From NCBI GenBank assembly GCA_016186995.1, contig JACPKQ010000007.1, positions 116,226 through 175,195 on the forward strand: a stretch of DNA of 58,970 nt, written 5' to 3'. The position numbers and the translations under genes were made by a program. Source of the DNA: Deltaproteobacteria bacterium. GTDB lineage: Bacteria > Bdellovibrionota > JACOXK01. The notes under the pieces were generated by a model. The model made no database searches. It worked only from the letters and a program-made list of their open reading frames with translations, and was not told the origin of the DNA. Positions within the stretch are counted from its first letter, which is position 1, and each line of letters starts with the position of its first letter. Shown here in pieces: positions 27,236-45,042 of the stretch.

Positions 27236-27267
27236 TTTTCCCTTAATTATTCCCCTTTTTTACTCTT

Positions 27268-27305: not shown

Positions 27306-27314
27306 TGGGGCTTC

Positions 27315-29058: not shown

Positions 29059-29156
29059 ACTTAGGTTCTTGATGACCTAGAGGTCTTTCAGTGCCCCTCC
29101 GCCCGGTGTGGATCCTCCCTGAAAAACCTCTAGGTCATCTTCACATAGACTCGAAT
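29059..29156. repeat. Family D composite palindrome, copy 1
   Basis: Starts ACTTAGGTTCTTGA (29,059-29,072), has perfect 14-bp arms GATGACCTAGAGGT (29,071-29,084) and ACCTCTAGGTCATC (29,126-29,139), and ends with CACATAGACTCGAAT. Copy 2 at 39,860 has the same left end and nearly the same right end but different inner arms. Confidence 0.65.
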
Positions 29157-29240
29157 GTAAATTCTCTCATGGATACGTCAGATCCTCCCCTTCAAAACAT
29201 ACTAGGTAACTTTATGTGTCTCATAACGAAAATAGGTTAA

Positions 29241-29391
29241 AGAGATAGGGATAGTACTTACAGAGGGTCGTGTCGGAAGGTAATCTGGCTTGGTCCGCAT
29301 GAATATGCGGCAGATTACCTGAGACGCGAGGCGCACTTTTTCGCAGGAAAAAAGTGACGCCGTACCCGAGGAAAGTACTATCCCTATCTCT
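29241..29391 (+). repeat. TIR-flanked 151-bp structured element, copy 1
   Basis: A perfect 19-bp terminal inverted repeat: AGAGATAGGGATAGTACTT (29,241-29,259) and its complement (29,373-29,391). Inside are a hairpin AGGTAATCTG/CAGATTACCT (29,278-29,287 with 29,311-29,320) topped by CCGCAT/ATGCGG, and a second stem CACTTTTTTC/GAAAAAAGTG. No target-site duplication is obvious. It could be a MITE-like element or a structured RNA. A second, longer copy is at 40,561-40,784. Confidence 0.8.
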
Positions 29392-29435
29392 TGAAGATAT
29401 AAGTTAGTTTGTAGCCATTTTAAGAACCCTACGAT

Positions 29436-29464
29436 TTCTTGACAAAATAAGTGAATTTGATACT
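29436..29464 (+). promoter_or_regulatory. Candidate promoter of the rpmF-fab operon
   Basis: A perfect TTGACA (29,439-29,444) is present, but the nearest -10-like GATACT (29,459-29,464) is only 14 bp away; TTCTTG (29,436-29,441) gives a 17-bp spacer with a poorer -35. One of these probably serves the operon starting 31 bp downstream. Confidence 0.35.
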
Positions 29465-29494
29465 TGTTGGAAGAATTTACCGAGGAGATCATGT

Positions 29495-29677
29495 ATGGCA
29501 GTTCCAAAATATAAAACTTCAAAGAGTCGCCGCAACAAAAGAAGAACACACCAAAAATTGAAAAAAGCTCATTTTGACTCTTGTCCTAAATGTCATGAGG
29601 CTTGTCTACGCCATCATATATGCGCTTCATGTGGATATTATAAAGGTACTGAAGTTCTTTCCGTAGAAGAAATCTAA
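29495..29677 (+). CDS. rpmF: Ribosomal protein L32
   Basis: A 60-residue bL32 with the N-terminal MAVPKYKTSKSRRNKRRTH signature and a CxxC...CxxC zinc ribbon (CPKC and CASC). A GAGGAG site precedes the ATG. It is immediately followed by fabD: the stop and next start are adjacent. In many bacteria rpmF leads plsX-fabH-fabD; here plsX and fabH are missing from the cluster. Confidence 0.95.
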   Translation: MAVPKYKTSKSRRNKRRTHQKLKKAHFDSCPKCHEACLRHHICASCGYYKGTEVLSVEEI

Positions 29678-30595
29678 ATGCTTTTTGTCTTTCCAGGTCA
29701 AGGTTCTCAAAGTGTGGGTATGGGAAGAGATCTTTACAATAATTTTAAACTTGCTCAAACGACCTTCGAAGAGGCAAGTGATACACTTAGCTTAAACTTC
29801 AAAAAACTATGTTTCGAAGAGTCTCAAGAAGAACTTAAAAAAACAGCCAATACACAACCTGCACTTCTTACAGTCTCTATTTCTTTTTTAAGAGTTTTAA
29901 ATTCTGAGTCTCATCTGAAACCAAAAATTGTGGCGGGTCACAGTTTGGGTGAATATTCTGCACTTGTTTGTAATGGAGCTTTAAGTTTTCATGATGCTTT
30001 AAGGCTTGTGAGAAAACGAGGAGAGGCTATGCAAGAAGCAGTTCCGGAAGGTGTGGGTGGTATGGTTGCGGTTCTCGGTTTAAGTGCCTCTGAGATCCAA
30101 AAAATGTGTGAAGAGACTTCAAGGAAAAACTATATTGTTTCTGCGGCTAATTTTAATGAACCTTCCCAAACCGTTTTATCAGGCCATAAAGAAGCTGTTG
30201 AAGAAGTAGGGCGTAAAGCTCAAGAAAGAGGTGCCAAAAGAGTAATACCCCTTAAAGTTTCTGCTCCTTTCCACTGTAGTTTGATGGAATCCGTAGCTTG
30301 TACGATGGAGGAAGCCCTAGAGAATACTCCCATTTCAAAATTTGAAATTCCTTATATTGCTAATTTTGATGGAAAACTGCATCAAAACTATGAAGAGGTG
30401 AAAGAGCTTCTCGTTAAACAAATTTGTCATTCAGTTCGCTGGGTGGAATGTATGGAGGAAGCCCTGAAACAGGGTGAGACTGAAGGCTTTGAAATAGGTT
30501 CCGGTTCTGTTTTGACAGGACTTATGAGAAAAATACAAAAAGACTTTTCTATGAAATCCATCTATGATGTGAAGTCATTAAAGGAGATACTATGA
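29678..30595 (+). CDS. fabD: Malonyl-CoA:ACP transacylase
   Basis: A 305-residue FabD. It begins MLFVFPGQGSQSVGMG; the nucleophile Ser89 lies in GHSLGEYSAL, and the catalytic His is in SAPFHCSLM (near 200). It loads malonate onto acyl carrier protein to feed fatty-acid elongation. It directly abuts rpmF and overlaps fabG by 4 nt, so the fab genes are one transcript. Confidence 0.95.
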   Translation: MLFVFPGQGSQSVGMGRDLYNNFKLAQTTFEEASDTLSLNFKKLCFEESQEELKKTANTQPALLTVSISFLRVLNSESHLKPKIVAGHSLGEYSALVCNGALSFHDALRLVRKRGEAMQEAVPEGVGGMVAVLGLSASEIQKMCEETSRKNYIVSAANFNEPSQTVLSGHKEAVEEVGRKAQERGAKRVIPLKVSAPFHCSLMESVACTMEEALENTPISKFEIPYIANFDGKLHQNYEEVKELLVKQICHSVRWVECMEEALKQGETEGFEIGSGSVLTGLMRKIQKDFSMKSIYDVKSLKEIL

Positions 30596-31341
30596 ATCTC
30601 GATCTGAAAAATAAAGTAGCTCTCATCACTGGAGGAACTCGAGGGATTGGATGTGCTATTGCTAAGTCACTTGCTAGAGAGGGTGTACTTCCACTTTTAG
30701 CTTATTCATCCAACAAAAACGCGGCCGAAAAAGCTTTGGAAGAACTTGAAGCCCTCTATGGGAAAGCACACATTTTTCAGTGCGATGTGAGTTCCCAAAA
30801 AGATGTTGATAAAAGTATAGAGGCACTTCTTAAAGAGTTTAGTCACATTGATATTCTTATTAATAATGCAGGTGTTACTAAAGATAATCTTCTTTTAAGA
30901 ATGAAAGAAGAAGAGTGGGATCATGTTATCGATGTGAATCTTAAGGGAGCCTATTTGTGTTCTCAGAAAGTTTTAAAATCTATGCTTAAACAAAGGTGGG
31001 GGCGTATTATTAATATTGCTTCTGTTGTGGCAGAGATGGGCAATGCAGGGCAAGTCAATTATGCAGCTTCTAAGGGTGGGCTTCTTAGCTTTACAAAATC
31101 ACTGGCTCGTGAGATCGCAAGTCGCAATATTACAGTGAATGCTTTAACACCTGGGTTTATTGAGACAGATATGACAGCTGGCTTGCCAGAAAATATGAAA
31201 GCGGCTATGTTGAAAAATATTCCTGTGGCGAGATTGGGTAGCCCAGAAGAAGTGGGGGATCTTGTTTGCTTTTTGGTATCGGAAAAAGCCGCTTACATTA
31301 CAGGGCAAGTTATTGGTATTAACGGCGGTTTATATATGTAG
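30592..31341 (+). CDS. fabG: 3-oxoacyl-ACP reductase
   Basis: A 249-residue short-chain dehydrogenase with NADPH-binding TGGTRGIG (13-20), NNAG (91-94) and catalytic Ser144, Tyr157 and Lys161. Together with its place between fabD and acpP this identifies FabG, which reduces the beta-keto group during fatty-acid elongation. The start overlaps fabD by 4 nt. A family B repeat fills the gap between it and acpP. Confidence 0.95.
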   Translation: MNLDLKNKVALITGGTRGIGCAIAKSLAREGVLPLLAYSSNKNAAEKALEELEALYGKAHIFQCDVSSQKDVDKSIEALLKEFSHIDILINNAGVTKDNLLLRMKEEEWDHVIDVNLKGAYLCSQKVLKSMLKQRWGRIINIASVVAEMGNAGQVNYAASKGGLLSFTKSLAREIASRNITVNALTPGFIETDMTAGLPENMKAAMLKNIPVARLGSPEEVGDLVCFLVSEKAAYITGQVIGINGGLYM

Positions 31342-31361
31342 CAAGTGAGGAATTTGTATTT

Positions 31362-31453
31362 GTCATTGCGAGGCAAAGCCGAAGCAATCCCCTAGAATTC
31401 TTGTAAGAATTCTAGGAGATCACCACGGTTCATTTTATGAACCTCGTGATGAC
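31362..31453. repeat. Family B palindromic repeat between fabG and acpP
   Basis: A 92-bp element: outer ends GTCATTGCGAG (31,362-31,372) and CTCGTGATGAC (31,443-31,453) pair imperfectly. An inner perfect 12-bp stem CCTAGAATTCTT/AAGAATTCTAGG (31,391-31,402 with 31,405-31,416) is followed by GAGATCACCACGG and a GGTTCA/TGAACC stem. Related copies occur at the 3' end of ribE and inside rnhB. It sits inside the fab transcript, so it will also form RNA structure before acpP. Confidence 0.85.
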
Positions 31454-31472
31454 AGAGAATAAGGGAGGATTT

Positions 31473-31709
31473 ATGTCAGCAGAAATTGCAGAAAAAATAA
31501 AAAAGCTTATTGTAGAACAGCTGGGTGTTGAGGCAGAAAAAGTAAAACTGGAAGCTTCATTTACAGATGATCTTGGAGCTGATTCTTTAGATGTCGTTGA
31601 ACTTGTGATGGCCTTAGAGGAAGAGTTTAATATTGAAATTCCAGATGAAGATGCTGAAAAAACTCGAACTGTAGGGGATGTTGTTAAGTACATTTCAAGC
31701 AAAAAGTGA
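31473..31709 (+). CDS. acpP: Acyl carrier protein
   Basis: A 78-residue ACP with phosphopantetheine attachment Ser38 in GADSLD. The ATG at 31,473 follows AAGGGAGGA; an in-frame upstream extension to 31,437 is coded by the family B repeat and is not part of the protein. It carries growing acyl chains for FabD, FabG and FabF. The stop overlaps the GTG start of fabF by 3 nt. Confidence 0.96.
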
Positions 31710-32956
31710 GTCGCGTGACAATCCAAAAAAGAGTTGTTGTAACAGGAATGGGTGCTGTTACACCACTTGGCTTAACTATTAAAGATACATGGAATGCTTT
31801 AATACAAGGCCATAGTGGTGTTTCTCTTATTTCTCGTTTTGATACACAAGATTTCCCCTGTAAGATAGCTGCTGAAATCAAAAATTATAACCCAGACCTC
31901 TACTTTACAAAACAAGAAGCAAGACGTCTTGAGCGGTTTTCTCAATTTGCAGTTGTTGCAGCCAGAGAAGCTTTACAAGATAGTGGACTCGAACTTTCAG
32001 AAGAAGAAAAACTGAAAACAGGTGTGATTGTAGGTGTGGGCATGGGGGGAGTTGAAGTTGTTGAAAATGCCGTACTTACTTTAAAAGAAAAGGGTGTGCG
32101 GCGTCTTTCACCTTTAGTGATTCCACTGATGATTCCTAATCTTGCTGCAGGGCATGTATCTATTCAACTGGGTTTAAAAGGGCCTAATGTGTGTACGACA
32201 ACAGCGTGTGCCGCTGGAAGTCATGCTATAGGTGATGCTTTTAAACATATTCAGGATGGACGTGCTCTTATGATGTTAGCTGGGGGTGCTGAATCTGTGA
32301 TTTCACCCCTAGGAATTGGTGCTTTTTGTGCCTGCAAAGCGCTTTCAACAAGAAATGATGCACCCGAAAGAGCAAGCAGACCTTTTGATGAAGAGCGTGA
32401 TGGTTTTGTAATGGGTGAAGGATCTGGCATTTTAGTTTTAGAAGAACTCGATCACGCCCAAAAAAGAAAAGCAAACATTTATGCTGAGATTGTAGGGTAT
32501 GGACTTAACTCAGATGCCTATCATATTACAAATCCATCAGAAGGGGGCGAAGGAGCAGCGCGATGTATGGAAATGGCTCTTTCTGACGCACGTCTTTCAA
32601 AAGAAGATATTGGATATGTGAACGCACATGGTACTTCCACCAAAGCTGGAGATATCGCTGAAAGCTCGGCACTTAAAACAGTTTTTAAAGATCAGGCCAA
32701 AAATCTTTGTGTTAGTTCCACAAAATCAATGACCGGCCATTTATTGGGAGCATCTGGTGGAGTCGAGGCAATTTTTTCAGTACTGGCACTTAAAAATTCG
32801 AAGTTGCCCCCAACCATCAATCTTGAAAATCAAGATAAAGAATGCGATCTTAACTATATTCCTAATGAAACTATCGAAAAGAATGTAAATTTTGTTCTTT
32901 CAAACTCGTTTGGTTTTGGTGGCACAAATGCCAGTTTAATTTTTAAAAAGATATGA
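31706..32956 (+). CDS. fabF: 3-oxoacyl-ACP synthase II
   Basis: A 416-residue beta-ketoacyl-ACP synthase with nucleophile Cys168 ([12 protein letters not shown]), and the two catalytic histidines in [11 protein letters not shown] and [12 protein letters not shown]. The GTG start overlaps the acpP stop. FabF elongates acyl-ACPs with malonyl-ACP. fabH, which starts chains, is not in this cluster. Confidence 0.95.
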
Positions 32957-34635
32957 AAAATATTTACATTGCTTCCGATCATAGAGGTGTAGAGCTTAAG
33001 AAAGCCCTTCTCAAAAAATTTCCTGAGTTAGAGGATTTGGGAGCTCATAATGGAGAAGAACCTGTCGATTACCCTGATTTCGCCCACAAGTTAGCTCATA
33101 AAATAGAACACAATAAAAAGGCTCGAGGCATCCTTCTCTGTCACACAGGTATTGGAATGTCCATTGCAGCTAATAAACTCAGAGGCATTCGTGCAGCATT
33201 AGTTACTAACAACACTATGGCGGAGATGAGTCGTAAGCATAATGATGCTAATGTTTTAGTTGTGCCAGGGGGTATTTTAAAACAAGAAGAAGTTTTTTCT
33301 ATGGTTGAAAAATGGCTTCATACAGATTTTGAAGCAGGTCGCCATGAAAGAAGAGTTTTAAAAATAAAATCTCTTGAATCTGGTTTAAGCGATATTTTTT
33401 CAACTGATCCAGAAATAGCCCAAGCTGTTTTTAATGAAATTAAACGCCAAGAATATAAACTTGAAATGATTGCAAGTGAGAATTTTGTAAGCCGGGAAGT
33501 GATGTGGGCACAAGGTACAGTGCTTACAAATAAATATGCTGAAGGGTACCCTCATAAAAGATATTACGGTGGATGTGAAAACGTAGATGTTGTTGAAGAT
33601 CTTGCCATTCAAAGAGTGAAGAAAATATTTGGAGCAGATGCTGCCAATGTACAACCCCACTCAGGTTCTCAGGCCAATATGGCTTCTTACATGGCTTTAC
33701 TTGAAACAGGCGATACTATTTTGGGAATGGATCTTTCTCATGGTGGACATTTAACACATGGAAGCCCCGTTAATTTTTCTGGCAGGCTTTTTAAAGTTGT
33801 TTCTTATGGGGTGAGTCCACAAGATCAACGTATTGATTTTAATGATGTAAGGCACAAAGCTTTAGCTCACAAACCAAAACTTATTATTGCAGGGGCGAGT
33901 GCTTATCCACGAACGATTGATTTTAAAAAATTTAGAGAAATTGCAGATGAAATAGGAGCTTTTCTTCTTGTTGATATGGCTCACATTGCTGGGCTTGTAG
34001 CGGCAGGCTTACACCCCAGTCCTGTGCCGCATTCTCACATTGTAACTTCTACAACACACAAAACACTTCGAGGTCCTCGAGGTGGTTTTATTCTTATGAA
34101 AGAAGAATTTGCTAAAAAAATTAATAGTCGTATCTTTCCGGGCATTCAGGGTGGCCCCCTCATGCATGTTATTGCTGCAAAAGCTATTGCTTTTAAAGAG
34201 GCACTCACTCCAGAGTTTAAGGAATATCAAAAGCAGGTTATTAAGAATGCGCAAGCCTTGGCGGAAGGGCTTAAAACAAAAGGGTATAAGCTTGTTTCAG
34301 GCGGCACTGATAATCACCTTGTTTTGGTAGACCTCACCAACAAAAATATAACAGGAAAAGAGGCAGAAGAGCGACTAGACAAGGCGGGTATTACTGTTAA
34401 TAAAAATACAATTCCTTTTGAAACCCAAAGTCCTTTTGTTACAAGCGGTATTCGGATTGGAGTTCCTGCCATTACGACAAGGGGTATGAAAGAGGATGAA
34501 ATCTTGAAAATAGTTGATTTTATTGATATAAGCCTCCGAAGCCCAGAGGTGGCTCCCAAAATTAAGGAAGAAGTTTTTGATCTTTGTAAACAATTTCCTC
34601 TGTATCCTCACCTTCTGGGTTGGTTGCCTAAGTAG
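32953..34635 (+). CDS. Fused ribose-5-phosphate isomerase B and serine hydroxymethyltransferase
   Basis: A 560-residue fusion in one uninterrupted frame. Residues 1-140 are a complete RpiB: SDHRG (8-12), catalytic Cys63 in [22 protein letters not shown] and the GRHERRV C-terminal motif. Residues 145-560 are a complete serine hydroxymethyltransferase: [19 protein letters not shown], and PLP-lysine Lys370 in [13 protein letters not shown]. Both active sites look intact. RpiB interconverts ribose 5-phosphate and ribulose 5-phosphate; GlyA makes glycine and methylene-THF. In relatives the two are often adjacent separate genes before nrdR. No stop or start is visible near the junction (about 33,370). 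Confidence 0.9.
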
Positions 34636-34662
34636 AAATCTTAGAACCAGGAGTGATTCCAT

Positions 34663-35130
34663 ATGAAATGCCCATTCTGTTTATTTCAAGATTCAAAAGT
34701 TATCGATTCTCGTCTTGGAGAAGATGGTACAATGACTCGTCGCAGACGAGAATGTATTCAGTGTCATAAAAGATTTACAACTTATGAAAAAGTTGAAATG
34801 GTTCTTCCCTTTGTTGTTAAAAAAGATGGGCGCCGCGAAGCAGTTGATTTAGATAAGATTCGAGCTGGTATCCGAAAAGCCTGTGAAAAAAGACCTATTT
34901 CTTCAGACCAAATTGAAAATATTATAAATTCTATTCAAAGAAAACTTTATGAAAGTGGAGAAAAGGAAATTGTATCAAGTCGTATTGGTGAATATGTTAT
35001 GGTTGCCCTCAAAGATTTAGATGAAGTGGCTTATGTTCGTTTTGCTTCTGTGTATCGTCAGTTTAAAGATATTTCCCAATTTATGAAAGAACTTAAAGTT
35101 TTAAAAAAAACAAATAGGAAAACAATATGA
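34663..35130 (+). CDS. nrdR: Transcriptional repressor NrdR
   Basis: A 155-residue NrdR: N-terminal zinc ribbon with Cys3, Cys6, Cys31, Cys34 (CPFC and CIQC) and an ATP-cone (about 48-135). NrdR represses ribonucleotide reductase genes in response to nucleotide levels. It follows the rpiB-glyA fusion by 27 nt and overlaps ribD by 4 nt, an order shared by many bacteria. Confidence 0.95.
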   Translation: MKCPFCLFQDSKVIDSRLGEDGTMTRRRRECIQCHKRFTTYEKVEMVLPFVVKKDGRREAVDLDKIRAGIRKACEKRPISSDQIENIINSIQRKLYESGEKEIVSSRIGEYVMVALKDLDEVAYVRFASVYRQFKDISQFMKELKVLKKTNRKTI

Positions 35131-36254
35131 ATCGTATACACGAAGCCATTATGCAGAAAGCGCTCGAACTTGCGGTAAAAGCGCAAGGAAAAACACAAAC
35201 AAATCCGCTTGTGGGAGCTGTGCTTGTTAAAGATAATATCATTATCGGTAAGGGTTTTCATTCAGCTTTTGGAGCACCTCATGCAGAGGTAGAGGCCATA
35301 GGCGACGCTCAAAAAAAAGGTTTTAGTGTTCAAGGGAGTTCTCTCTATGTAACGCTTGAGCCTTGTGTTCATTTTGGAAAAACTCCACCGTGTACAGAAC
35401 TTATTTTAAATTCGGGTATTTCAGAGGTTTTTATTGGAATGACGGATCCAGACCCAAAAGTAAAAGGGCTTGGGCTAAACATTCTTAAGGAAAATAAAAT
35501 AAAAGTTGAAGTGGGTGTTTTAGAAAAGGAGTGTCAGAAGTTAAACCAGTTTTATATTAAGCACAGGGAAACTGGGCTTCCTTATGTCATTCTTAAAGTG
35601 GCAGCTACTTTAGATGGAAAAATTGCCGATTCTCATGGAGGCTCACGATGGATTACAGGAGATGGAGCACGCTGTTATGTTCATAAAATACGAAGTCGTA
35701 TGGATGCAATTTTAGTGGGTATCAATACGGTGATCAAAGACAATCCACAACTGACTGTAAGACTTCCAGGTGTGAGTGCAAAACCTTTAAGAATTGTTTT
35801 GGATTCTCACCTAAGAATTCCTCTTGATTCAAAAATTCTTAACGATGCATCAGTTTCAAGAACCATGATTATTATGTCCTCCTGTCATTCCGGCAAGAGC
35901 GGGGATCTATCATCTAAGATTGATGAGATCAGAAAAAAAGGAGCTCAGGTTCTTCCTTCTGCTTCTTGCCATTCCCGCGATCTTAAAATTGCTTTAAAGC
36001 CTCTTCTTCAAAGTTTAAGTAAAGATGGTGTTATGTCTCTTATGGTTGAAGGAGGAGCAGAAACGAATGCTTCATTTTTAAAAGAAGGGCTTGTAGATCA
36101 AATTGATTATTTCTTTGCCCCACGTATTTTAGGGGCTGAAGGCTTAAATTCTATTGCTTCTTTAGGGATTGATAATATTCAAAAAGCTCTCTCATTTAAA
36201 GATTATAAGTTTGAAAGGGTTGGAAATGACCTTCTTTTTGAGGGGACTCTCTAA
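35127..36254 (+). CDS. ribD: Bifunctional riboflavin biosynthesis deaminase/reductase RibD
   Basis: A 375-residue RibD. The deaminase domain (1-145) has HAEVEA (zinc-binding) and the PCVHFGKTPPC cysteines. The reductase domain (about 150-375) has KVAATLDGKIA, GSRWITG and MVEGGAETNASFL. It performs the second and third steps of riboflavin synthesis. Residues about 253-261 (SCHSGKSGD) are coded by a family A repeat, and a second degenerate piece lies at SCHSRD about 30 residues later. Both are in a surface loop of the reductase domain. The stop overlaps ribE by 1 nt. Confidence 0.92.
   Translation: MNRIHEAIMQKALELAVKAQGKTQTNPLVGAVLVKDNIIIGKGFHSAFGAPHAEVEAIGDAQKKGFSVQGSSLYVTLEPCVHFGKTPPCTELILNSGISEVFIGMTDPDPKVKGLGLNILKENKIKVEVGVLEKECQKLNQFYIKHRETGLPYVILKVAATLDGKIADSHGGSRWITGDGARCYVHKIRSRMDAILVGINTVIKDNPQLTVRLPGVSAKPLRIVLDSHLRIPLDSKILNDASVSRTMIIMSSCHSGKSGDLSSKIDEIRKKGAQVLPSASCHSRDLKIALKPLLQSLSKDGVMSLMVEGGAETNASFLKEGLVDQIDYFFAPRILGAEGLNSIASLGIDNIQKALSFKDYKFERVGNDLLFEGTL
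35884..35909. repeat. Family A repeat inside ribD
   Basis: GTCATTCCGGCA to GGGGATCTA lies in frame at about residues 253-261 of RibD. A degenerate half-copy (CCATTCCCGCGATCTTA) is at 35,969-35,985. The reading frame is kept. Confidence 0.65.
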
Positions 36255-37021
36255 TGTTTTCTGGAATCATTACATCTTTAGCCGTGATTGATGAAGTCAT
36301 AAAACAATCTTCTTCTCTCACACTTCATTGTACATGGAAAAAACCACTTATAGGTGTAGAAGAAGGAGAAAGTTTAAGTCTGAACGGTATTTGTTTAACA
36401 GTCACAAAAGTCATGTCATTCCAGCCCGAAGCTCTTGGCATGACCCCTGTCATTCCCGCATCAGATGAAAGCACCAGCGGGAATCTAGATAGCGCAGCCA
36501 CTTTTTTTGAAGTCGATGTTTCAATAGAAACTTTAGAGAAGACAACAGCCAAGAATTGGAAGAATGGGGATCTCTTAAATGTTGAAAGAGCTCTTAAATA
36601 TTCTGATGTGGTTGGAGGACATCTTGTCAGTGGCCATATTGATGGAGTTGGAAAAGTTTCTGAAATTTCTGTCATCCCAGCGAACCCCTCTGTCATTCCA
36701 GCGCAGGCTGGAATCCAGTCCCAATTCACAAAAATGACTCTTTCTCTTCCAAAAGCCTTTATGAAGCATATTGTTTCGAAAGGCTCTCTTGCAGTGGATG
36801 GTGTGAGTCTCACTATCAATAAAGTTTTAGAAAAAGAAGTAGAACTTATGTTTGTTCCCTTTACGTTACAAAACACAAACTTGGGAACAAAACAAAAAGG
36901 CGATTTAGTAAACGTTGAGCTTGATATGATTGGAAAGTATGTTGCAAAACATCTGGAGGATATTGCTATAGTGCAGTCATTGCGAGGAGTCGAAGACGAC
37001 GCGGCAATCCCATCGCGGTAG
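36254..37021 (+). CDS. ribE: Riboflavin synthase with repeat-derived insertions
   Basis: A 255-residue riboflavin synthase alpha chain; related proteins have about 195-215 residues. The two lumazine-binding repeats are recognisable (MFSGIITSLAVIDEV and GICLTVTKV; VVGGHLVSGHIDGVG and VDGVSLTINKV). Residues 54-79, 140-157 and about 241-255 are coded by palindromic repeats: two family A sites and a family B copy that also provides the stop. Removing them gives a normal-size enzyme. The reaction is the dismutation of 6,7-dimethyl-8-ribityllumazine. The gene overlaps ribD by 1 nt. Confidence 0.9.
   Translation: MFSGIITSLAVIDEVIKQSSSLTLHCTWKKPLIGVEEGESLSLNGICLTVTKVMSFQPEALGMTPVIPASDESTSGNLDSAATFFEVDVSIETLEKTTAKNWKNGDLLNVERALKYSDVVGGHLVSGHIDGVGKVSEISVIPANPSVIPAQAGIQSQFTKMTLSLPKAFMKHIVSKGSLAVDGVSLTINKVLEKEVELMFVPFTLQNTNLGTKQKGDLVNVELDMIGKYVAKHLEDIAIVQSLRGVEDDAAIPSR
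36415..36444. repeat. Family A half-copy inside ribE (site 1a)
   Basis: GTCATTCCAGCCC to TGGCATGACC, immediately before a full family A copy. It codes residues 54-63 of RibE (MSFQPEALGM). Its end also reads as an inverted GTCATGCC, so it may be two half-elements. Confidence 0.55.
36449..36488. repeat. Family A repeat inside ribE (site 1b)
   Basis: GTCATTCCCGCATCAG to CAGCGGGAATCTAG: arms ATTCCCGC and GCGGGAAT pair perfectly. It codes residues 66-78 of RibE (VIPASDESTSGNL), inside a loop between the first lumazine-binding strands. Confidence 0.85.
36671..36718. repeat. Family A repeats inside ribE (site 2)
   Basis: A half-copy GTCATCCCAGCGAACCCC is followed by a full copy GTCATTCCAGCGCAGG to GGAATCCAG (36,692-36,718). 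It codes VIPANPSVIPAQAGIQS (residues 140-156). The VIPAQAGIQ peptide is a known signature of such repeats when translated. Confidence 0.88.
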
Positions 37022-37040
37022 CGATGAGATCACCACGGGT
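36976..37040. repeat. Family B repeat at the 3' end of ribE
   Basis: Starts GTCATTGCGAGG and contains the family B core GAGATCACCACGG; the right end is not clear. It codes the last 14 residues of RibE and supplies its TAG stop. Confidence 0.75.
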
Positions 37041-37051
37041 TTTCTGTTAGT

Positions 37052-37072
37052 CCCCTCCCTTGATGGGAGGGG
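37052..37072. repeat. Family C hairpin before ribBA
   Basis: CCCCTCCC and GGGAGGGG around TTGAT, 12 nt before the ribBA ATG. It is followed by ATAGGAATTAAA. Its purine-rich right arm and the AGGA after it may serve as ribosome-binding sequence. Confidence 0.75.
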
Positions 37073-37084
37073 ATAGGAATTAAA

Positions 37085-38302
37085 ATGTATACAAGCGTAG
37101 AAAAAGCAATAGAAGATATCAAAAACGGAAAGATGGTTCTTTTGGTTGATGATGAAGACCGAGAGAATGAAGCTGATCTTGTTTTTGCCGCTCAATTTGC
37201 AACGTCTCACTATATTAATTTTATGATTCGAGAAGGGCGTGGGCTTGTGTGTTTAGCGCTTGAAGAAAAATATGTTCAAAGATTAAACCTTCCTATGATG
37301 ACAGAAAAAAATAATGCGCGTTTAGCCACTGCTTTTACAGTTTCTATTGATGCTAAACAAGGTATTTCTACAGGTATTTCAGCAAAGGATAGATCTTTAA
37401 CCATACAAAAAGTGATGGATGAAAACTCCACTTCAGGAGATTTTGTTGTTCCTGGGCATATTTTTCCACTTCGCGCTCAAAAAGGTGGAGTTCTTGTTCG
37501 CTCAGGCCATACCGAAGGTTCTATTGATTTAACTCGTTTAGCGGGGCTTAAAGCAGGAGCCGTTATTTGTGAGGTCATCAATGATGATGGAGAAATGGCA
37601 AGGTGTAGTGATATTATAAAATTTTCTAAGAAACATAATATTCGTATTGTGACGATTGCTGATATTATTTCTTATCGTCTCCAACATGAAAGGTTTGTTC
37701 ATAGAGTAACCCAAGCCAAACTTCCTACACATTTAGATGAAAGTACAACGCAAGATTTCAAAATTTATTTGTTCCAAAATGAAATTGATCATTGTTCTCA
37801 TGTTGCTCTTGTAAAAGGACGTATTGAAAAAGAAAAGCCAACCCTTGTGCGTGTGCATTCTGAATGTTTAACAGGAGATGTTTTTGAATCTCAAAGATGC
37901 GATTGCGGTGAGCAATTGAGAGAAAGTATACGAATGATTTCAAAGGAAGGAAAAGGAGTTTTGCTTTATTTAAGACAGGAAGGAAGGGGTATTGGCATCA
38001 TCAATAAAATTAAGGCTTATCACCTTCAAGATGTAGAAAATGTTGATACAGTTCAAGCTAACGAAAAATTAGGGTTACCCGCTGATTTAAGACATTATGG
38101 CATTGGTGCTCAGATTCTAGCAAGTTTAGGGGTGGGTAAGATGAAGCTTCTTACCAATAACCCTAAAAAAATTATTGGCCTTGAGGCTTATGGTTTAGAG
38201 ATGGTTGAAAGAGTCGCCATTGAAATTCCTCCCCACAAAGAAAATCGTAAGTATTTAAAAACGAAAAAAGAAAAAATGGATCATTTATTAAAATTAGTAT
38301 GA
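37085..38302 (+). CDS. ribBA: Bifunctional DHBP synthase / GTP cyclohydrolase II
   Basis: A 405-residue fusion enzyme. Residues 1-200 are 3,4-dihydroxy-2-butanone 4-phosphate synthase ([27 protein letters not shown]). Residues 205-400 are GTP cyclohydrolase II ([21 protein letters not shown] with zinc cysteines, and LRQEGRGIG). It supplies both precursors of lumazine. Its second half can be catalytically weak in some relatives, but both motif sets look complete here. It lies between family C repeats on both sides and appears to have escaped insertions itself. Confidence 0.94.
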
Positions 38303-38314
38303 TCCGGGCGCCAT

Positions 38315-38351
38315 CCTCTCCCTTGATGGGAGAGGACAAAGGAGAGGGTGA
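38315..38351. repeat. Family C hairpin repeat before ribH
   Basis: CCTCTCCC/GGGAGAGG around TTGAT (38,315-38,335), then ACAAAGGAGAGGGTGA. The purine-rich tail contains GGAGAGGG and the GTG at 38,348, so the repeat provides the ribosome-binding region and one possible start codon of ribH. Confidence 0.85.
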
Positions 38352-38812
38352 GAAGAAAAGTGAAGTTTGCAATTATCGTTTCAAAATTTAATGAATCTCT
38401 TACACAAAAATTGTGTGATGGTGCCAAAGAAGTATTTTTAAAAAATAATGTTTCAGAAGATAATATTGATGTGTTTAGAGTGCCTGGTTCTTTCGAAATA
38501 CCTCTTATGGCTCAAAACTTAGCACGTACAAAGAAATACGTTGGGCTTGTTGCGATTGGAATTATTATTAAAGGTGAGACAGATCATTATCAACATGTGA
38601 CGGAAGGGGCAGTCTCAGGTATTTTAAAAGTTTCTTTAGAGAATAACATTCCGATTGGTAACTGTGTTCTTGCGTGCCACACATGGGCGCAAGCAGAAGC
38701 AAGATGCTCATTGTCATCTTCAGGCCCTGCCGGGGGATCCAGAATTAACCGAGGGTGTGAGGCTGCAGAAGCGGTTTTAGAAATGGTGGAACTGAATCCT
38801 CCTCTCCCTTGA
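38348..38812 (+). CDS. ribH: 6,7-dimethyl-8-ribityllumazine synthase
   Basis: A 154-residue lumazine synthase from GTG 38,348 (150 residues from GTG 38,360, MKFAIIVSKFN, which looks more like the family N-terminus). Motifs include FNESLTQKLCDGA, VPGSFEIPLMA and GIIIKGETDHYQHVTEGAVSGI, with the catalytic histidine. Residues about 122-132 (SLSSSGPAGGS) are coded by a family A repeat inserted before the last helix. The C-terminus (NPPLP) and the stop codon are provided by a family C repeat. It condenses the RibBA and RibD products. Confidence 0.9.
   Translation: MRRKVKFAIIVSKFNESLTQKLCDGAKEVFLKNNVSEDNIDVFRVPGSFEIPLMAQNLARTKKYVGLVAIGIIIKGETDHYQHVTEGAVSGILKVSLENNIPIGNCVLACHTWAQAEARCSLSSSGPAGGSRINRGCEAAEAVLEMVELNPPLP
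38713..38742. repeat. Family A repeat inside ribH
   Basis: GTCATCTTCAGG to CGGGGGATCCAG, 30 bp, in frame. It adds ten residues between the active-site region and the C-terminal helix of RibH, where the family has a short loop. Confidence 0.72.
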
Positions 38813-38837
38813 TGGGAGAGGACAAAGGAGAGGGTGA
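38801..38837. repeat. Family C hairpin repeat joining ribH and nusB
   Basis: CCTCTCCC/GGGAGAGG around TTGAT (38,801-38,821), then ACAAAGGAGAGGGTGA. The TGA in its loop is the ribH stop codon (38,810-38,812). Its tail gives GGAGAGGG and a GTG (38,834) in frame with nusB. Confidence 0.88.
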
Positions 38838-38854
38838 TAGAGTGGTGTTTATTT

Positions 38855-39289
38855 ATGGGATATAGAAGAAAGGCTCGTGAAATGGCACTTCAGATTCTTT
38901 TTCAAGGAGAGTATTTTCCTGAAGCAAATCTTAAAGAGAATGAAAAACATTTTCTTTTCTCTTTCCCTGTACAAAAGGAAATTGAACTTTTTGGTTCAAA
39001 GCTTTATGAAGGGGTTTGTGAACATTTAGAAGACATTGATCTTCTGCTCCAAAAGTATTCTGAACATTGGAAGCTTTATCGTATGTCCCCCATTGATAGG
39101 AATATTTTACGTATTGCTCTTTTTGAAATGGTTTATCTTAAGGATATTCCAGCCAGTGTTTCTATTGATGAGGCTATCGAAATTGCAAAACACTACGGCA
39201 CCGAAGACTCGGGAGCTTTTGTAAATGGTATTCTCGACAAAATCTTGAAAAAAGAAATTCAAAAAAATATAGTTTCTAAAACTGCTTAA
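38855..39289 (+). CDS. nusB: Transcription antitermination factor NusB
   Basis: A 144-residue NusB from ATG 38,855 (MGYRRKAREMALQILFQ, the typical family start). An extension to GTG 38,834 is coded by the family C repeat. The helical domain has the C-terminal INEAIEIAKHYG-like signature IDEAIEIAKHYGTEDSGAFVNGILD. NusB binds boxA RNA with S10 in rRNA antitermination. It follows ribH by 42 nt, the common ribH-nusB order. Confidence 0.93.
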   Translation: MGYRRKAREMALQILFQGEYFPEANLKENEKHFLFSFPVQKEIELFGSKLYEGVCEHLEDIDLLLQKYSEHWKLYRMSPIDRNILRIALFEMVYLKDIPASVSIDEAIEIAKHYGTEDSGAFVNGILDKILKKEIQKNIVSKTA

Positions 39290-39293
39290 AAAG

Positions 39294-39644
39294 CTATTCC
39301 TCGACACCAGGAAAGTATTCCACAAACTTTACTTCGATGTCTGGAAGCGTATCAACAATTTCAACAGTAAAATCAGGAAAGTGATCTACAATCTGCCACT
39401 CGCCGCAGGAGTTGGTAAAATTTTCTCTCACTTTTACTTTTAGATCGGAAAATGTATCAACAACTCTTATTTTTATGTCTCCAAAATTTCTTACAAATCT
39501 TACTTTTCCTTGTAGAGGAATGCCTTTTACTTTACAGTCTTTTATTTTTTCTGAATTCCTGTCATCCCCACCTGAAGCCGCAGGCACAAGCCCGGATCCA
39601 GCAAGAAAAAGCGCAAAAAGAAAAACAACAACACCTTTCTTCAT
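39294..39644 (-). CDS. Secreted protein resembling the 7(1) septoil knot family
   Basis: A 116-residue protein with a signal peptide and about seven short repeats of the form VxxFxDIKVxxV (RFVRNFGDIKIRVVDTFSD, VKVRENF, IVDHFPDFTVEIVDTLPD, VKFVEYFPG). Two cysteines (CKVKG and SCGEW) could form a disulfide. The repeat pattern matches my memory of the 7(1) septoil knot domain, a small beta protein with one of the deepest known knots. The signal-peptide end (residues 15-28) is coded by a family A repeat. It is convergent with nusB, 5 nt apart. Confidence 0.6.
   Translation of the reverse strand: MKKGVVVFLFALFLAGSGLVPAASGGDDRNSEKIKDCKVKGIPLQGKVRFVRNFGDIKIRVVDTFSDLKVKVRENFTNSCGEWQIVDHFPDFTVEIVDTLPDIEVKFVEYFPGVEE
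39561..39601. repeat. Family A repeat in the signal-peptide region of the knot protein gene
   Basis: GTCATCCCCACC to CCCGGATCCAG, 41 bp, read in frame on the minus strand as GSGLVPAASGGDD. It spans the end of the hydrophobic core and the likely cleavage site. Confidence 0.72.
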
Positions 39645-39708
39645 AACGATACCTCTCGGCGTCGCTCTAGCACTTTACTCCTCAAAGCTTCGAGCTACGG
39701 CCTAGTTT

Positions 39709-39762
39709 GTCTTCAAAAGCAACGCCGATCACGGCGTAGCCTTTGGTGAAGACGGACCAAGA
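39709..39762. repeat. Inverted-repeat segment, possible dispersed repeat
   Basis: TGTCTTC and GAAGAC flank a perfect ACGCCG-ATCA-CGGCGT hairpin (39,722-39,737). Only one copy is seen here, so membership of a repeat family is a guess based on its style. Confidence 0.35.
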
Positions 39763-39859
39763 TTGCCAAGGATTATAAATAAAATACTTTATCTGTAAAG
39801 CTTTAATAACAGAAGGGAGTTGCGATGAGCATGTGTGATGTTATCCACATGTTTATGCA

Positions 39860-40063
39860 ACTTAGGTTCTTGAAATGGCAGTGTCTTTCGCTTCATGGCT
39901 CGCTGTAGTTGTTCCACGCGGACTTTCTGTCATCCCTGGGTTCAGGTCCCCGCCTGCGCGGGGATAAACTCCGGCAGGGATCCAGTATTCTATTTTTTAT
40001 GAATTTTGGGCTGCGCTTTACTTCCGCTTCAGACACTGACCATTTCCTCACATAAACTCGAGT
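39860..40063. repeat. Family D composite palindrome, copy 2
   Basis: Starts with the same ACTTAGGTTCTTGA as copy 1 and ends CACATAAACTCGAGT. Inner arms GAAATGGCAGTGTCT (39,872-39,886) and AGACACTGACCATTTC (40,031-40,046) pair with one bulge. A family A repeat sits near its centre (39,929-39,985). Confidence 0.6.
39929..39985. repeat. Family A repeat nested in family D
   Basis: GTCATCCCTGGG to CGGCAGGGATCCAG, 57 bp, with an inner GTCCCCGC/GCGGGGAT stem. It interrupts the spacer of the family D palindrome, which suggests insertion of one repeat into another. Confidence 0.75.
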
Positions 40064-40219
40064 ATTCATGAGATGAACAAACCACAATGTACACATGCAA
40101 CAGGAGATGTGCGTGGGAGATTATAAATACAAAGTGTTTGGTATAAGCGTCCCAGAGTCGCTTACAGCTCATCGCAACTTTCTAACAGGCTGTCCTATAA
40201 TAGCTTTCACTCCTTAATT

Positions 40220-40501
40220 TTATTTATTTGATTGAGATTCTTTTTTTGTCTCTTTCTTTTCAGTTTTAGGTGTTTCTTTTGTGGAATCTGTTTGTGAGGT
40301 GTCTTTAGATTCTGGCTTTTTAGAAGTAGAGTAAAGGTCTTTGTACCACCCGCCACCTTTTAAGAGAAAGCTACTTTCTGAAATAAGCTTTATTAAAGTG
40401 CCAAAGCATTCTTCGCACTTATTAAGAGGTTTATCTGAGATTTTTTGAATTATTTCAAAAACCTTTTTACACTTTTTACACTGATATTCATATATAGGCA
40501 T
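40220..40501 (-). CDS. FmdB-type zinc ribbon regulatory protein
   Basis: A 93-residue protein starting MPIYEYQCKKCKKVFE with Cys8, Cys11, Cys29 and Cys32, the FmdB/Zn-ribbon signature. After residue 55 the sequence is a low-complexity Lys/Thr/Ser/Glu tail. Members are widespread and poorly understood; a regulatory role is by name only. The gene is alone between repeat-rich gaps. Confidence 0.85.
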   Translation of the reverse strand: MPIYEYQCKKCKKVFEIIQKISDKPLNKCEECFGTLIKLISESSFLLKGGGWYKDLYSTSKKPESKDTSQTDSTKETPKTEKKETKKESQSNK

Positions 40502-40855
40502 AGCGCGCTTTTTATCACAGTTTTAAATTTGAATCAATTTCTAGAATGACACTTTATTTAAGAGATAGGGATAGTTCTTATCGAGGGTCGTGTCGGAAGG
40601 TAATCTGGCTTGGTCTGCATAGTATATGCAGCAGATTACCTGTAGAGGCGAGGTCCAGGCTTTTATGAATCATTTTTTAGTTTCACAAAAATGATTCATA
40701 AAAAAGATAATTCCCGGAGTTAAGCTGTTCTTTTCTAATAAAAAAAGTGATGCCGTGCCCGAGGGAAGTACTATTCCTATCTCTGTAATGAAGAACCAAG
40801 GTTGTCATTCAATGAGGGATTGCTTTCTTTTCGCGTGATTGTTACATGTGAAAGA
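40502..40855. other. Gap upstream of the ffh operon
   Basis: About 354 bp holding the second copy of the TIR-flanked element (40,561-40,784). The remaining bases show no gene. A promoter for the ffh operon should lie here, but no strong -35/-10 pair was picked out by eye. Confidence 0.5.
40561..40784 (+). repeat. TIR-flanked structured element, copy 2 (224 bp)
   Basis: Ends AGAGATAGGGATAGTTCTT and AAGTACTATTCCTATCTCT (2 mismatches to a perfect 19-bp inverted repeat). The first 60 nt match copy 1 at about 56 positions. The central hairpin region has about 70 extra bases containing its own palindrome TGAATCATTTTT/AAAAATGATTCA. Same orientation relative to downstream genes as copy 1. Confidence 0.8.
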
Positions 40856-41386
40856 GTGGAAATAAAAATCACCTCAGAGCCTATTGATCAAATCAAAGCA
40901 GGCGCTCTTGTTTCTGACATTTACGCAAGAGACTTTCCTTTGAAAGGTCACCTAGGCATGCTCGATTGGAGATTGTATGGTTTCTTTTCTCATCTTTTAG
41001 AAGATGCAAAACTGACTGGAAGGCTCAGAGAAACGTATCTTATTCCATCGCAAAACAAAACACGCACTCAATATTTTTTATTGGCAGGTTTAGGAAGTAA
41101 AACAAGACTTACAGAAAAAAAAGTAAGCTCTGTTGTGCCTCATGTTTTAAAAACTTTACGGCGAATGAAAGTACAAGAGTTTGTTCTTGTACCCTTGGGA
41201 TGGCAAGTGCTTGGGTTTAATCGTGCTTTCAAACTTTTTATGCAAGAGCTTCATAAAAATGAACCTTTGTTTCCTTCTTTTTTCTTTAAAAAAATGATTG
41301 TTTACATTCCACCAGAGGCCAAAAAATCTCGAACCCACGTTTCAAAAATGCTTCCCTTCATTCAAAAGAGAATGTCCCATGTTTGA
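40856..41386 (+). CDS. Stand-alone M17 peptidase N-terminal-like domain protein
   Basis: A 176-residue protein from GTG 40,856. It resembles the N-terminal macro-like domain of leucyl aminopeptidases (MEIKITSEPIDQIKAGALVSDIY, DFPLKGHLGMLDWRL, YFLLAGLGSK, KVQEFVLVPLG). The catalytic C-terminal domain is absent, so it should have no peptidase activity. In full enzymes this domain helps hexamerise or bind DNA. The start is uncertain (upstream GTG 40,835 or TTG 40,802). It overlaps ffh by 8 nt. Confidence 0.62.
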   Translation: MEIKITSEPIDQIKAGALVSDIYARDFPLKGHLGMLDWRLYGFFSHLLEDAKLTGRLRETYLIPSQNKTRTQYFLLAGLGSKTRLTEKKVSSVVPHVLKTLRRMKVQEFVLVPLGWQVLGFNRAFKLFMQELHKNEPLFPSFFFKKMIVYIPPEAKKSRTHVSKMLPFIQKRMSHV

Positions 41387-42692
41387 AAGTTTAACTGAAA
41401 AGCTTTCAGGTATTTTTGATAAAGTTCGTTCACGTGGCATTATCACCGAAGAAAATATTGAAGGCTCTTTAAGAGATATTCGCCTTTCTCTGCTTGAAGC
41501 CGATGTTCATTATAAAGTGGCAGGCGAGCTTATTCAAAAAATAAAAGAAAAAGCATTGGGTGAAAAAGTTTTAAAAAGTCTTACTCCTGGGCAAGTTTTT
41601 ACAAAAATTGTTCAAGATGAACTTGCAGTTATTATGGGTGAAGAAGCACAAGAACTTTCTTTTAAAGCAACACCCCCAGCAGTTATTTTAATGGTTGGGT
41701 TGCAAGGTTCTGGAAAAACAATAACGTGTATAAAACTTGCGTGTTTTATCCAAAAAAATTTTAAAAAAAAGGTTTATCTTGTGCCAGCTGATATGAGTAG
41801 GCCTGCAGCTATCGATCAACTTAAAACTTTGGCCAAACAAAATGACCTTTCCTGTTACGATACAAGGCTCAAAGACAAACCTTTAAAAGTTGTAAAAAGA
41901 GCTTTAGGTGAGGCTTCCAAAAGAGGAGATGATGCTGTTCTTATTGATACAGCAGGAAGACTTCACATTGATGAAGTTCTCATGAATGAACTTTTAGACG
42001 TTAAGAAAAAAACAAATCCTGTTGAAATTTTACTCGTTGTTGATTCGATGATGGGTAACGATGCTGTTCCCATGTCAACTCAGTTTCATGAAAAGCTAGG
42101 TTTGACGGGCGTTATACTTACGAAACTAGATGGAGATGCAAGGGGTGGTGCTGCCCTTTCTATAATGCATGTGACAGGTATTCCTATTAAATTTGTTGGA
42201 TTAGGGGAAAAATCACAAGATTTTGAGGTTTTTGATCCACAACGCATGGCTTCCCGTATTTTAGATAAGGGTGATGTGGTGGGATTGGTTGAAAAAGCGC
42301 AGGCCGTATTTGAAGAGGAAGAAATCGAAGATTTAAGTACAAATTTGTTTAAAAACGACTTTACATTAGTTGATTTTTTAAAACAGTTAAGAATGCTTAA
42401 AAAAATGGGACCACTTCAAGGAATCCTTAAAATGATCCCTCAAATGGGCACAATCTCAAAATCTCTCTTGCAAAAACCGCAAGAAAATCATATGAAGAGG
42501 GTCGAAGCGATTATTTTATCGATGACGCCTGGAGAAAGAAAGAATTACAAAATTTTAAATGGCTCAAGACGTCTTCGTATTGCAGAAGGAAGCGGAACCT
42601 CTATTATGGAAGTGAATCGTCTTCTTAAGCAGTTTATAAACGCAAGAAAGATGATGAAAAACATGAAGAAATTTGGTAAATTACCTATTTAG
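41379..42692 (+). CDS. ffh: Signal recognition particle protein Ffh
   Basis: A 437-residue Ffh. N domain (1-85), G domain with G1 GLQGSGKT (107-114), DTAGR and [10 protein letters not shown], and the methionine-rich M domain (about 300-437, [32 protein letters not shown]). It binds signal peptides and the SRP RNA, and pairs with FtsY, also in this window. Met at 41,379 ([13 protein letters not shown]) is the family start; an upstream frame to 41,298 is not. Confidence 0.96.
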
Positions 42693-42702
42693 AGGAGGAT
42701 TT

Positions 42703-42945
42703 ATGGCAGTTGTTATTAGGTTAGCTCGACACGGAAAAAAGAAACAGCCTTTCTACCGATTGGTAGTGGCTGATCAAAGATTTCCAAGAGATGGTCGTTA
42801 CATCGACATTCTTGGCTATTATAACCCCCGTGGAGAAAAAGAAACCGTTCATTTGGAAAAAGAAAAGATCGAAGAATGGTTAAAAAAAGGAGCAAAACCT
42901 ACCTTAAGAGTTCGTGATGTTTTAAAACTTGGCATAAGTGCATAA
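42703..42945 (+). CDS. rpsP: Ribosomal protein S16
   Basis: An 80-residue bS16 starting [28 protein letters not shown] 42,703 follows an AGAGGAGG site; a longer frame to 42,673 lies inside ffh. It follows ffh by 10 nt, the usual ffh-rpsP order. Confidence 0.96.
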
Positions 42946-42989
42946 GCATTTAATAGAGAGTTAAAGCAGGTTACATTCGGGAGGCGAAC

Positions 42990-43238
42990 GTGGGAAACGA
43001 ACATGAAATGAGAGAGCTCATTGAATATGTTGCCAAAGCTCTTGTAGATTTTCCTGACAAGGTCGAAGTAACAGAAGTTGTGGGTGAGCAAACAACTGTT
43101 ATTGAACTTAAGGTGGCTAAAGAAGATTTGGGTAAAGTCATTGGTAAGCAAGGTCGAACAGCTCGTGCTTTACGCATAATACTCAATGCAACTTCAACAA
43201 AGCTTAAGAAACGCTCCGTTTTAGAAATTATTGAATGA
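42990..43238 (+). CDS. khpA: KH-domain RNA-binding protein KhpA
   Basis: An 82-residue protein that is one KH domain ([29 protein letters not shown], GxxG as GKQG). It starts with a GTG after GGGAGG. KhpA/YlqC proteins bind RNA, often with KhpB. It lies in the normal rpsP-khpA-(rimM)-trmD series and overlaps trmD by 4 nt. rimM is missing at the position where it usually follows. Confidence 0.9.
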
Positions 43239-43924
43239 AATTTGAAGTTATTACGCTTTTCCCAGGGTTTTTTACCTCTGCTCTGGACCAATCTATTTTA
43301 AAAAAAGCTCAAAATAAAGCTTTAATCGAGATCTATATCCATGACTTGCGTCCTTTTGGATTAGGTCCTCATAAGGTGTGTGATGATGTGCCTTATGGTG
43401 GTGGAGGGGGAATGCTGATGTGTGTTGAGCCTCTTGTAAAAGCCTTAGAAAGCATTCCTAAAGTTCCCCAAAAACGCATTATTTTACTCACCCCACAAGG
43501 AGAAAAACTCACCCAAAAGAAACTTAAAGTTTTAAGTGAATATGATCAACTTATTATCGTGTGTGGGCGTTACCATGGGGTTGATGAAAGATTTAAAGCT
43601 TACATAGATGAAGAAATTTCTATTGGCGATTATGTTATTAATGGTGGAGAAACAGCAAGTCTTGTTCTTATTGAAGGAGTGACGCGGCTTATTCCAGGGG
43701 TTTTGGGTCATGAAGGGTCTCTTACACAAGAAACATTTGAACATGATCTTCTGGGTTACCCACAGTATACACGCCCTCCAGTTTTTGCTGGACAAAAGGT
43801 TCCAGGTATTTTAGTGTCAGGCGATCACAAAGCAATTTCTCAATGGAGGAAGAAGAAGGCGCTTCACATAACAAGAAAAAAGCGGCCTGATTTGTTGGAT
43901 GAGTTAGACCATGAACAAGATTAG
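43235..43924 (+). CDS. trmD: tRNA (guanine-N1-)-methyltransferase TrmD
   Basis: A 229-residue TrmD with the trefoil-knot SPOUT motifs: [37 protein letters not shown] and [21 protein letters not shown] follows. It methylates G37 of tRNAs reading CNN codons and prevents frameshifting. It directly overlaps khpA without an intervening rimM, and its last 14 nt overlap rplS. Confidence 0.95.
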
Positions 43925-44363
43925 CGATTATATTAGAAGTAAAAAAACAGATAAGAAATTTCCTGCTTTTCGTTCTGGAGATACTATCCGTGTTGGTGTT
44001 TCCATTAAAGAAGGGGGAAAAGAACGTGTTCAAGATTTTGAAGGGCTTGTTGTAAGAATTAAAAAAGGTCCACAGGCAAGTTTCACTGTAAGAAAAGTTG
44101 CTTTTGGTGTTGGGGTTGAAAGAACCTTTCCTTTTGATTGTCCTTCTGTTCAAAGAATTGAACTTCTTAAAGAGGGTAAGGTCAGACGTTCAAGACTTTA
44201 CTACATGAGAGATCGCACGGGTAAAGGAACACGTATCGAGGAGAAAGGTAAAGGGCTTAATAATAATGAAGATGGACAAGATGTTGAAGCCGCAGAAAAT
44301 GAAGAAGTAGAAGTTACTGAAAAGAAAGAAGCCACCTCCCATGCTCAAGCCGTCTCTTCTTGA
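43911..44363 (+). CDS. rplS: Ribosomal protein L19 with acidic extension
   Basis: A 150-residue bL19. The core (about 1-115) carries FRSGDTIRVGVSIKEG, FEGLVVRIKKG and SPSVQRIELLKEGKVRRSRLYYMRDRTGK. Residues 116-150 form an acidic, low-complexity tail (NNNEDGQDVEAAENEEVEV) not seen in most L19 proteins, which end near 115-120. The tail overlaps the rnhB start by 23 nt. Confidence 0.93.
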   Translation: MNKISDYIRSKKTDKKFPAFRSGDTIRVGVSIKEGGKERVQDFEGLVVRIKKGPQASFTVRKVAFGVGVERTFPFDCPSVQRIELLKEGKVRRSRLYYMRDRTGKGTRIEEKGKGLNNNEDGQDVEAAENEEVEVTEKKEATSHAQAVSS

Positions 44364-45042
44364 GCTAGATCTTCTAAAAATGAATTCAAATATTATTGGT
44401 GTTGATGAAGTGGGCCGCGGTTGTCTTGCAGGCCCGGTTGTTTCAGCAGCAATCAGTTTTCATGATTGGTCAGAAATTAAAGGTATTCAAGACTCTAAAA
44501 AAGTTTCCAAGAAAAAAAGAGAAGCACTTATTCCATTGATTCAAAGTAAAGCTCATGTAGGAATAGGGGTTATAGAACCTCAAGAAATTGATTGTATCAA
44601 TATTCTTCAAGCTTCTCTTCTTTCTATGAAAAAAGCTATTTTAAACCTTATATCTTCTTCTGTCATTGCGAGTGCAACGAAGCAACGCAATCGCGATAGC
44701 GATGAGATCACCACGGTCGCTAGGCTCCCTCGTGATTATACCCTTCAGGGTGGAAAAATCACACCTTACATCCTCATTGATGGACACCTTACTTTAGATA
44801 TAGAATTTCCCCAAAAACCCATTATTGGTGGGGATGGCTCTTGTTACTCTATTGCGGCCGCATCCATTATTGCAAAGGTTTACAGAGATCGTCTTATGGA
44901 AAGCTATGCGAAAACTTACCCGGGTTATGATTTTGAAAACAATGTTGGTTATGGTACGCAAAAACATCGCGATGCAATTGAGGTGAATGGTGTTACTCCC
45001 ATTCACAGAAAAACCTTTAGAGGGGTTCGAGAGTTTGTATAA
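44341..45042 (+). CDS. rnhB: Ribonuclease HII with a repeat-derived insertion
   Basis: A 233-residue RNase HII. Catalytic core: GVDEVGRGCLAGP (Asp and Glu), IQDSKKVSKKKRE, YILIDGH and AASIIAKVYRD. It removes RNA from RNA-DNA hybrids. Residues 108-133 are exactly coded by a 78-bp family B repeat (26 codons, in frame) with a GGK linker after it. The insertion lies before the YILIDG strand, at a position where related enzymes have a short loop. Typical RNase HII is about 200 residues. It overlaps rplS and yraN. Confidence 0.92.
   Translation: MLKPSLLELDLLKMNSNIIGVDEVGRGCLAGPVVSAAISFHDWSEIKGIQDSKKVSKKKREALIPLIQSKAHVGIGVIEPQEIDCINILQASLLSMKKAILNLISSSVIASATKQRNRDSDEITTVARLPRDYTLQGGKITPYILIDGHLTLDIEFPQKPIIGGDGSCYSIAAASIIAKVYRDRLMESYAKTYPGYDFENNVGYGTQKHRDAIEVNGVTPIHRKTFRGVREFV
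44662..44739. repeat. Family B repeat inside rnhB
   Basis: GTCATTGCGAG (44,662) to CTCGTGATTAT (44,739), 78 bp, with the core GAGATCACCACGG. It begins at the first base of codon 108 and adds exactly 26 codons. Family B copies in ribE and upstream of acpP share the core. Confidence 0.88.

Follow-up and report, generated by a model that had tools for sequence, protein, structure and literature searches.

RibE and its repeat-coded segments

The window, i.e., the whole stretch of 58,970 nt that was analysed, contains a rib operon in which ribE (36254-37021, forward strand) codes for a riboflavin synthase of 255 aa. The assignment is based on the Lum_binding family, which matches in two stretches, on alignments and on structure matches. 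The assembled genome has this one copy; a second ribE was not found in it. RibE is longer than its relatives, as a sequence-only reading of the locus had proposed: relatives in which the full start can be placed have 198-218 aa, and most open frames fall between 198 and 228 aa. That reading had ascribed residues 54-79 and 140-157 to family A repeats. Both in-frame family A sites were recovered; the limits had to be moved to residues 54-83 and 140-155, and both sites turned out to be more than single units.

Insert 1 (residues 54-83, MSFQPEALGMTPVIPASDESTSGNLDSAAT; 36413..36502, forward strand) has no counterpart in homologues. It is compound, i.e., a degenerate family A unit that was read from the sequence (TGTCATTCCAGC...GGCATGA; 36414..36443, forward strand) is followed by a long-form family A unit with a AGCGCAGCCAC tail that was found by pattern match (copy L314; 36448..36503, forward strand). 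Insert 2 (residues 140-155, VIPANPSVIPAQAGIQ; 36671..36718, forward strand) corresponds to a gap in homologues and adds a net 14 residues. It starts with a half unit, after which a complete family A unit of the short form occupies 36691-36718. At the end of ribE a family B unit, recognised by its core, runs into the spacer (36976..37045, forward strand, 3' limit approximate). It codes for the last 14 residues of RibE (SLRGVEDDAAIPSR) and the TAG stop, exactly as had been claimed.

The inserted residues are absent from relatives in the phylum as well as from solved riboflavin synthases. Aligned with the former, both internal RibE blocks are unmatched. With the PDB structures 9ryj, 4e0f, and 1i8d the flanks align and two gaps open at the RibE inserts; against the E. 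coli enzyme (1i8d), RibE residue 53 pairs with residue 54 and residue 87 with residue 61. When 38 RibE sequences are aligned, the present one included, the invariant residues fall outside the inserts.

The AlphaFold model of RibE has a mean pLDDT of 84, with core strands mostly above 90, and matches 1i8d, 4e0f, and 1kzl at a TM of about 0.90 by target length; among riboflavin synthase structures the TM by target length reaches 0.93. Insert 1 is modelled as a loop between strands 46-55 and 83-89 (pLDDT about 51-59) and insert 2 as a loop between strands 131-141 and 158-164 (pLDDT about 75-78); the tail, residues 248-255, stays below 50. In this prediction the riboflavin-synthase fold of RibE is thus intact and the inserts form loops between its strands. 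Because the invariant residues lie outside the inserts, the fold appears to be kept and ribE is single, RibE is likely a working enzyme which carries extra loops.

Three repeat families in the window and in the genome

The repeats in the window are not confined to ribE. The preceding gene, ribD, carries a family A insert of its own (CHSGKSGDLS; 35880..35913, forward strand), seen as about 11 extra residues against a gap in 2b3z. A family B unit adds about 33 residues to the product of the RNase HII gene (44341-45042; unit at 44650..44760, forward strand, limits approximate). A third palindrome, family C, is positioned at three junctions in a row within the rib operon, all on the forward strand: between ribE and ribBA (37049..37085), ahead of ribH (38314..38351), and over the end of ribH and the start region of nusB (38800..38837). 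The 3' part of the copy at 38314..38351 comprises a GGAGAGG purine run and the GTG with which the ribH ORF starts. At L238 and L239, similarly, a GTG start is found 12 nt past a family C palindrome. A further family C copy is located at 27267 of the window.

Two repeats of other kinds were observed. A 64-nt repeat has copies of 92% identity at 29232-29400 and 40557-40620 and forms, at the former site, inverted arms of 37 nt which are 95 nt apart. Between 24901 and 25725 five diverged copies of a 33-nt repeat are spaced by 180-213 nt; possibly these are protein repeats.

The short form of family A consists of the tag TGTC and an 8-bp stem, ATTCCCGC/GCGGGAAT, which starts with AT and encloses a 4-nt loop, GAAG. 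TGTC is the consensus tag in 42 short copies; GGAATC is followed by CAG in 19 of these 42 and by TAG in another 10, i.e., CCAG or CTAG. Within the window the strict palindrome has two exact matches, both in ribE, and none in 100 dinucleotide shuffles; a slightly looser form adds the unit in ribD.

Further genomic copies, on which the sequence-only reading depended, were sought and found. Since homologues also lack the inserted residues, that reading passed both of the tests it had named, and its interpretation is supported. In the genome of 1.68 Mb, a draft of 30 contigs which is 93% complete, family A has 66 strict matches and the reversed pattern has none. Only the stretches around pattern matches were read and all copy counts are lower bounds. 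Removal of nested hits leaves 63 independent family A copies: 31 are inside ORFs, defined by ≥10 codons on both sides, 5 straddle the boundary of an ORF and 27 are outside. Intragenic copies thus make up about half of the independent ones. Head-to-head dimers account for 13 of the 63 copies, and monomers predominate. Whether dimers are kept out of genes was considered as well; 3 of 13 dimers and 28 of 50 monomers are inside (p 0.06), and such an exclusion is not established.

The copies in ORFs make use of five stop-free frames, which read VIPAKAGIQ, SFPRRRES, CHSREGGNP, DSRLRGND, and WIPAFAGMT. The sixth frame has a stop and appears at the ends of proteins, e.g., of HisS. A literature search for the peptide VIPAQAGIQ returned no paper. 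One might regard the extra segments as hypervariable protein loops which look like repeats by chance or through biased composition, and the RibE inserts do sit at loop tips of slightly varying length among riboflavin synthases. Yet near-identical DNA occurs at dozens of unrelated places, intergenic ones included, its different frames give unrelated peptides, and the window pattern is missing from all shuffles. The use of one DNA sequence in several frames and its presence in spacers refute the chance-loop reading, to which we accord practically no probability.

Every unit is able to form a hairpin. This would be compatible with insertions that do not reach the finished protein, owing to intron-like removal or ribosomal bypassing. 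Removal does not require an open frame, however, and the intragenic copies keep one. Further, a search of 26500-46500 against Rfam returned no family at the gathering threshold and no intron family. Removal or bypassing is therefore highly improbable.

Besides RibE, about two dozen proteins or more, for the greater part housekeeping ones, contain repeat-coded inserts. Of the host proteins that were examined, the majority match known families in Pfam. For family A the hosts comprise UvrC, ThyX, an aminotransferase, DsbD-type and COX15 proteins, an FtsX/LolE-type permease, CarB, a pyridine nucleotide-disulphide oxidoreductase (LpdA), ResB, a cytochrome c assembly protein, Asd, ComEC, ValS, spore photoproduct lyase, PurF, TruA, and MutS, in addition to RibD. 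The family B core has 23 genome matches at ≤2 mismatches, the majority of which are recognisable copies, with hosts such as RNase HII, RNase R, and MutS (twice). The family C palindrome, TCCTCTCCCTTGATGGGAGAGGA..AAGGAGAGGGTGA, has 25 genome copies at ≤2 mismatches and is found in MutL, a Mur ligase, and a molybdate transporter. DNA repair genes with inserts of family A, B or C include those for MutS (L026), MutL (L229), UvrC (L002), and spore photoproduct lyase (L160). In LpdA (L144:637-2106, reverse strand) a 21-nt tandem expansion, coding for GNDKGDR several times over, comes after the family A unit; around other copies there are similar half-unit repeats of 21 nt.

The copies of the three families are clustered more than by chance: for 28 of 110 a neighbour lies within 1 kb, where 13 would be expected, and 2 of 2000 simulations reached the observed number. 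The rib operon is one of these clusters.

The long form of family A retains the stem of the short form and consists of TGTCATTCCCGC, a loop of about 17-20 nt and GCGGGAATCYAGAAAGCGNAGCCACCT. It has a near-constant length and is open in all sense frames. There are 18 matches in which the tail YAGAAAGCGNAGCCACCT follows the palindrome, and 15 of these 18 are in ORFs. Among the 15, 13 are in sense orientation, a modest excess over the three of five open frames (p 0.027). A search of eight related genomes for the long variant gave no convincing match; one match with 3 mismatches is no better than what the reversed control gives. The long form could be a lineage-private mobile element which is adapted to coding sequence and specialised to spread as coding DNA; we hold this to be rather doubtful. 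Since genes cover about 80% of the window, the 15 of 18 in ORFs could reflect no more than insertion without regard to genes, followed by the loss of out-of-frame cases.

Empty sites and the origin of the inserts

Orthologues of five host genes, taken from the same family or the same class, lack the inserts. The same-family genome, G001, belongs to another genus and has a single family A pattern match in its whole length. The empty sites correspond to 20 aa in PurF, 17 aa in TruA, about 30 aa in LpdA, about 17 aa in Asd, and several inserts in UvrC. The empty site in PurF is well placed because the G001 orthologue is 76% identical.

Across 291 genomes of the phylum the family A copy number ranges from 0 to 142. 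Here 33 of 65 copies are in ORFs (31 of 63 without nested hits), and for three distant genomes from the phylum the figure is 6 of 38 (Fisher p 0.0004), a comparison of unequal samples in which ORFs were taken by length alone, without gene annotation. Samples from members of the class are intermediate: 3 of 11 in G002, 5 of 10 in G004, and 3 of 8 in G005. In the genome with 142 copies, G010, 1 of 12 sampled copies is in a gene.

The genome is a draft of many contigs, and one may ask whether assembly or binning produced the pattern. About 30 insertions within intact ORFs are the opposite of what errors should generate. Moreover, the pattern is present in related genomes, among others inside a 1033-aa ORF of G004 that resembles CarB. 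An artefact thus has next to no likelihood.

Another proposition is that the intragenic copies are kept because they are useful, e.g., as binding sites or as mRNA hairpins by which the operon is tuned; the peptide would then be a tolerated by-product. The family C copies at successive rib junctions with a purine-rich run 5' of the ribH GTG, the clustering beyond chance, and the mostly sense orientation of the long copies would all agree with usefulness. On the other hand, the host genes are functionally mixed, the positions vary between genes, the orthologues manage without inserts, and the copy number varies widely within the phylum. We consider usefulness unlikely.

The extra segments of RibE are very probably in-frame insertions of palindromic repeats, family A being a CGTC-1-type REP and family B a second palindromic family. 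According to the mechanism which we hold most likely, these REP-like, non-autonomous sequences would spread through the genome with the moving enzyme supplied from elsewhere. Many insertions would land in genes because genes cover most of the genome. An insertion with a net length that is a multiple of three would add a short peptide, since the short unit has a stop codon in one of its six frames only. The copies which persist would be those whose peptide ends up at a protein terminus or in a loop on the surface. The data show directly the repeats with their frames and positions, the empty sites in relatives, the predicted intact fold and the lack of a Y1/RAYT transposase in the assembled genome. 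Transposition as such, movement by a supplied enzyme, the retained enzyme activity and survival by tolerance instead of use are what we infer from these data. A RAYT was considered as the mover. The lack of Y1_Tnp (PF01797) in the assembled genome speaks against it, although at 93% completeness a transposase gene could be missing from the assembly; the same domain was found in 5 of 14 control genomes.

With the Rickettsia RPEs and the intragenic CGTC REPs published in 2013 the phenomenon is already known, and what is new is an unusually dense case in another lineage. About 30 family A inserts in genes, together with those of families B and C, are present in a lineage that is distant from Rickettsia. 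One nearly empty same-family relative, together with several others of low copy count, provides natural before-and-after pairs. The density, the presence of several families together and the nearly empty same-family genome make this a good test case. Movement of the elements and tolerance of proteins for inserts of 14 to about 30 residues become directly testable, e.g., in UvrC, PurF, LpdA, Asd, TruA, and RibE.

Relation to known palindromic repeats

Palindromic repeats that code for protein have been described chiefly in Rickettsia and Wolbachia; in other organisms there are scattered cases among CGTC and GTAG REPs. The features of CGTC-1 REPs described in PMC3733652 largely recur in family A: an 8-bp stem starting with AT, a 4-nt loop, a CCA-like tail, no transposase of their own, some head-to-head dimers, and some units in ORFs. 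Family A differs in its tag, mostly TGTC, which that description permits as a change of CGTC, and in the intragenic location of about half of its independent copies. CGTC REPs are intragenic in some cases, including DNA repair genes, according to the same source. Head-to-head dimers are predominant there, as a usual and not a defining trait, whereas in family A they are the minority. The form with a long loop and a 3' tail is a feature of family A that is not among the CGTC-1 features listed above from PMC3733652. Measured against this description, family A is by its sequence a CGTC-1-type REP which is atypical in dimer share; the wording "CGTC-1-type" was chosen because dimers do not predominate.

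GTAG REPs with RAYT transposases share with family A short palindromes, many copies and some intragenic locations; they differ in the tag, and a Y1_Tnp gene was not found in the genome assembled here. RPE-1, RPE-2, and RPE-3 are palindromic and inserted in frame in genes, like the inserts reported here. They are, however, about 100-150 bp long, almost lack the ATGAC motif (PMC3767692) and represent another sequence type.

RPE-4, RPE-6, and RPE-7 come closer. They are inserted in frame in housekeeping and repair genes, as is family A, and the ATGAC motif by which they are marked (PMC3767692) equals GTCAT/ATGAC in family A. Solvent-exposed insertion sites were reported for them, and in RibE the inserts are predicted to form loops. 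Two differences are evident. At the sites compared, the family A inserts are not shared with the same-family genome. Further, the host lineage appears to be a different one: RibBA forms a long branch among delta-proteobacterial-type lineages in its tree, and the named neighbours are not Rickettsiales. The likeness to Rickettsia palindromic elements that the sequence-only reading had suggested is a close one. Family A fits CGTC-1, and in PMC3733652, so far as its account of R. conorii goes, RPE-6 and RPE-4 are equated with the CGTC-1 and CGTC-4 REP families. Family A works like the Rickettsia elements, with which it may share a common descent.
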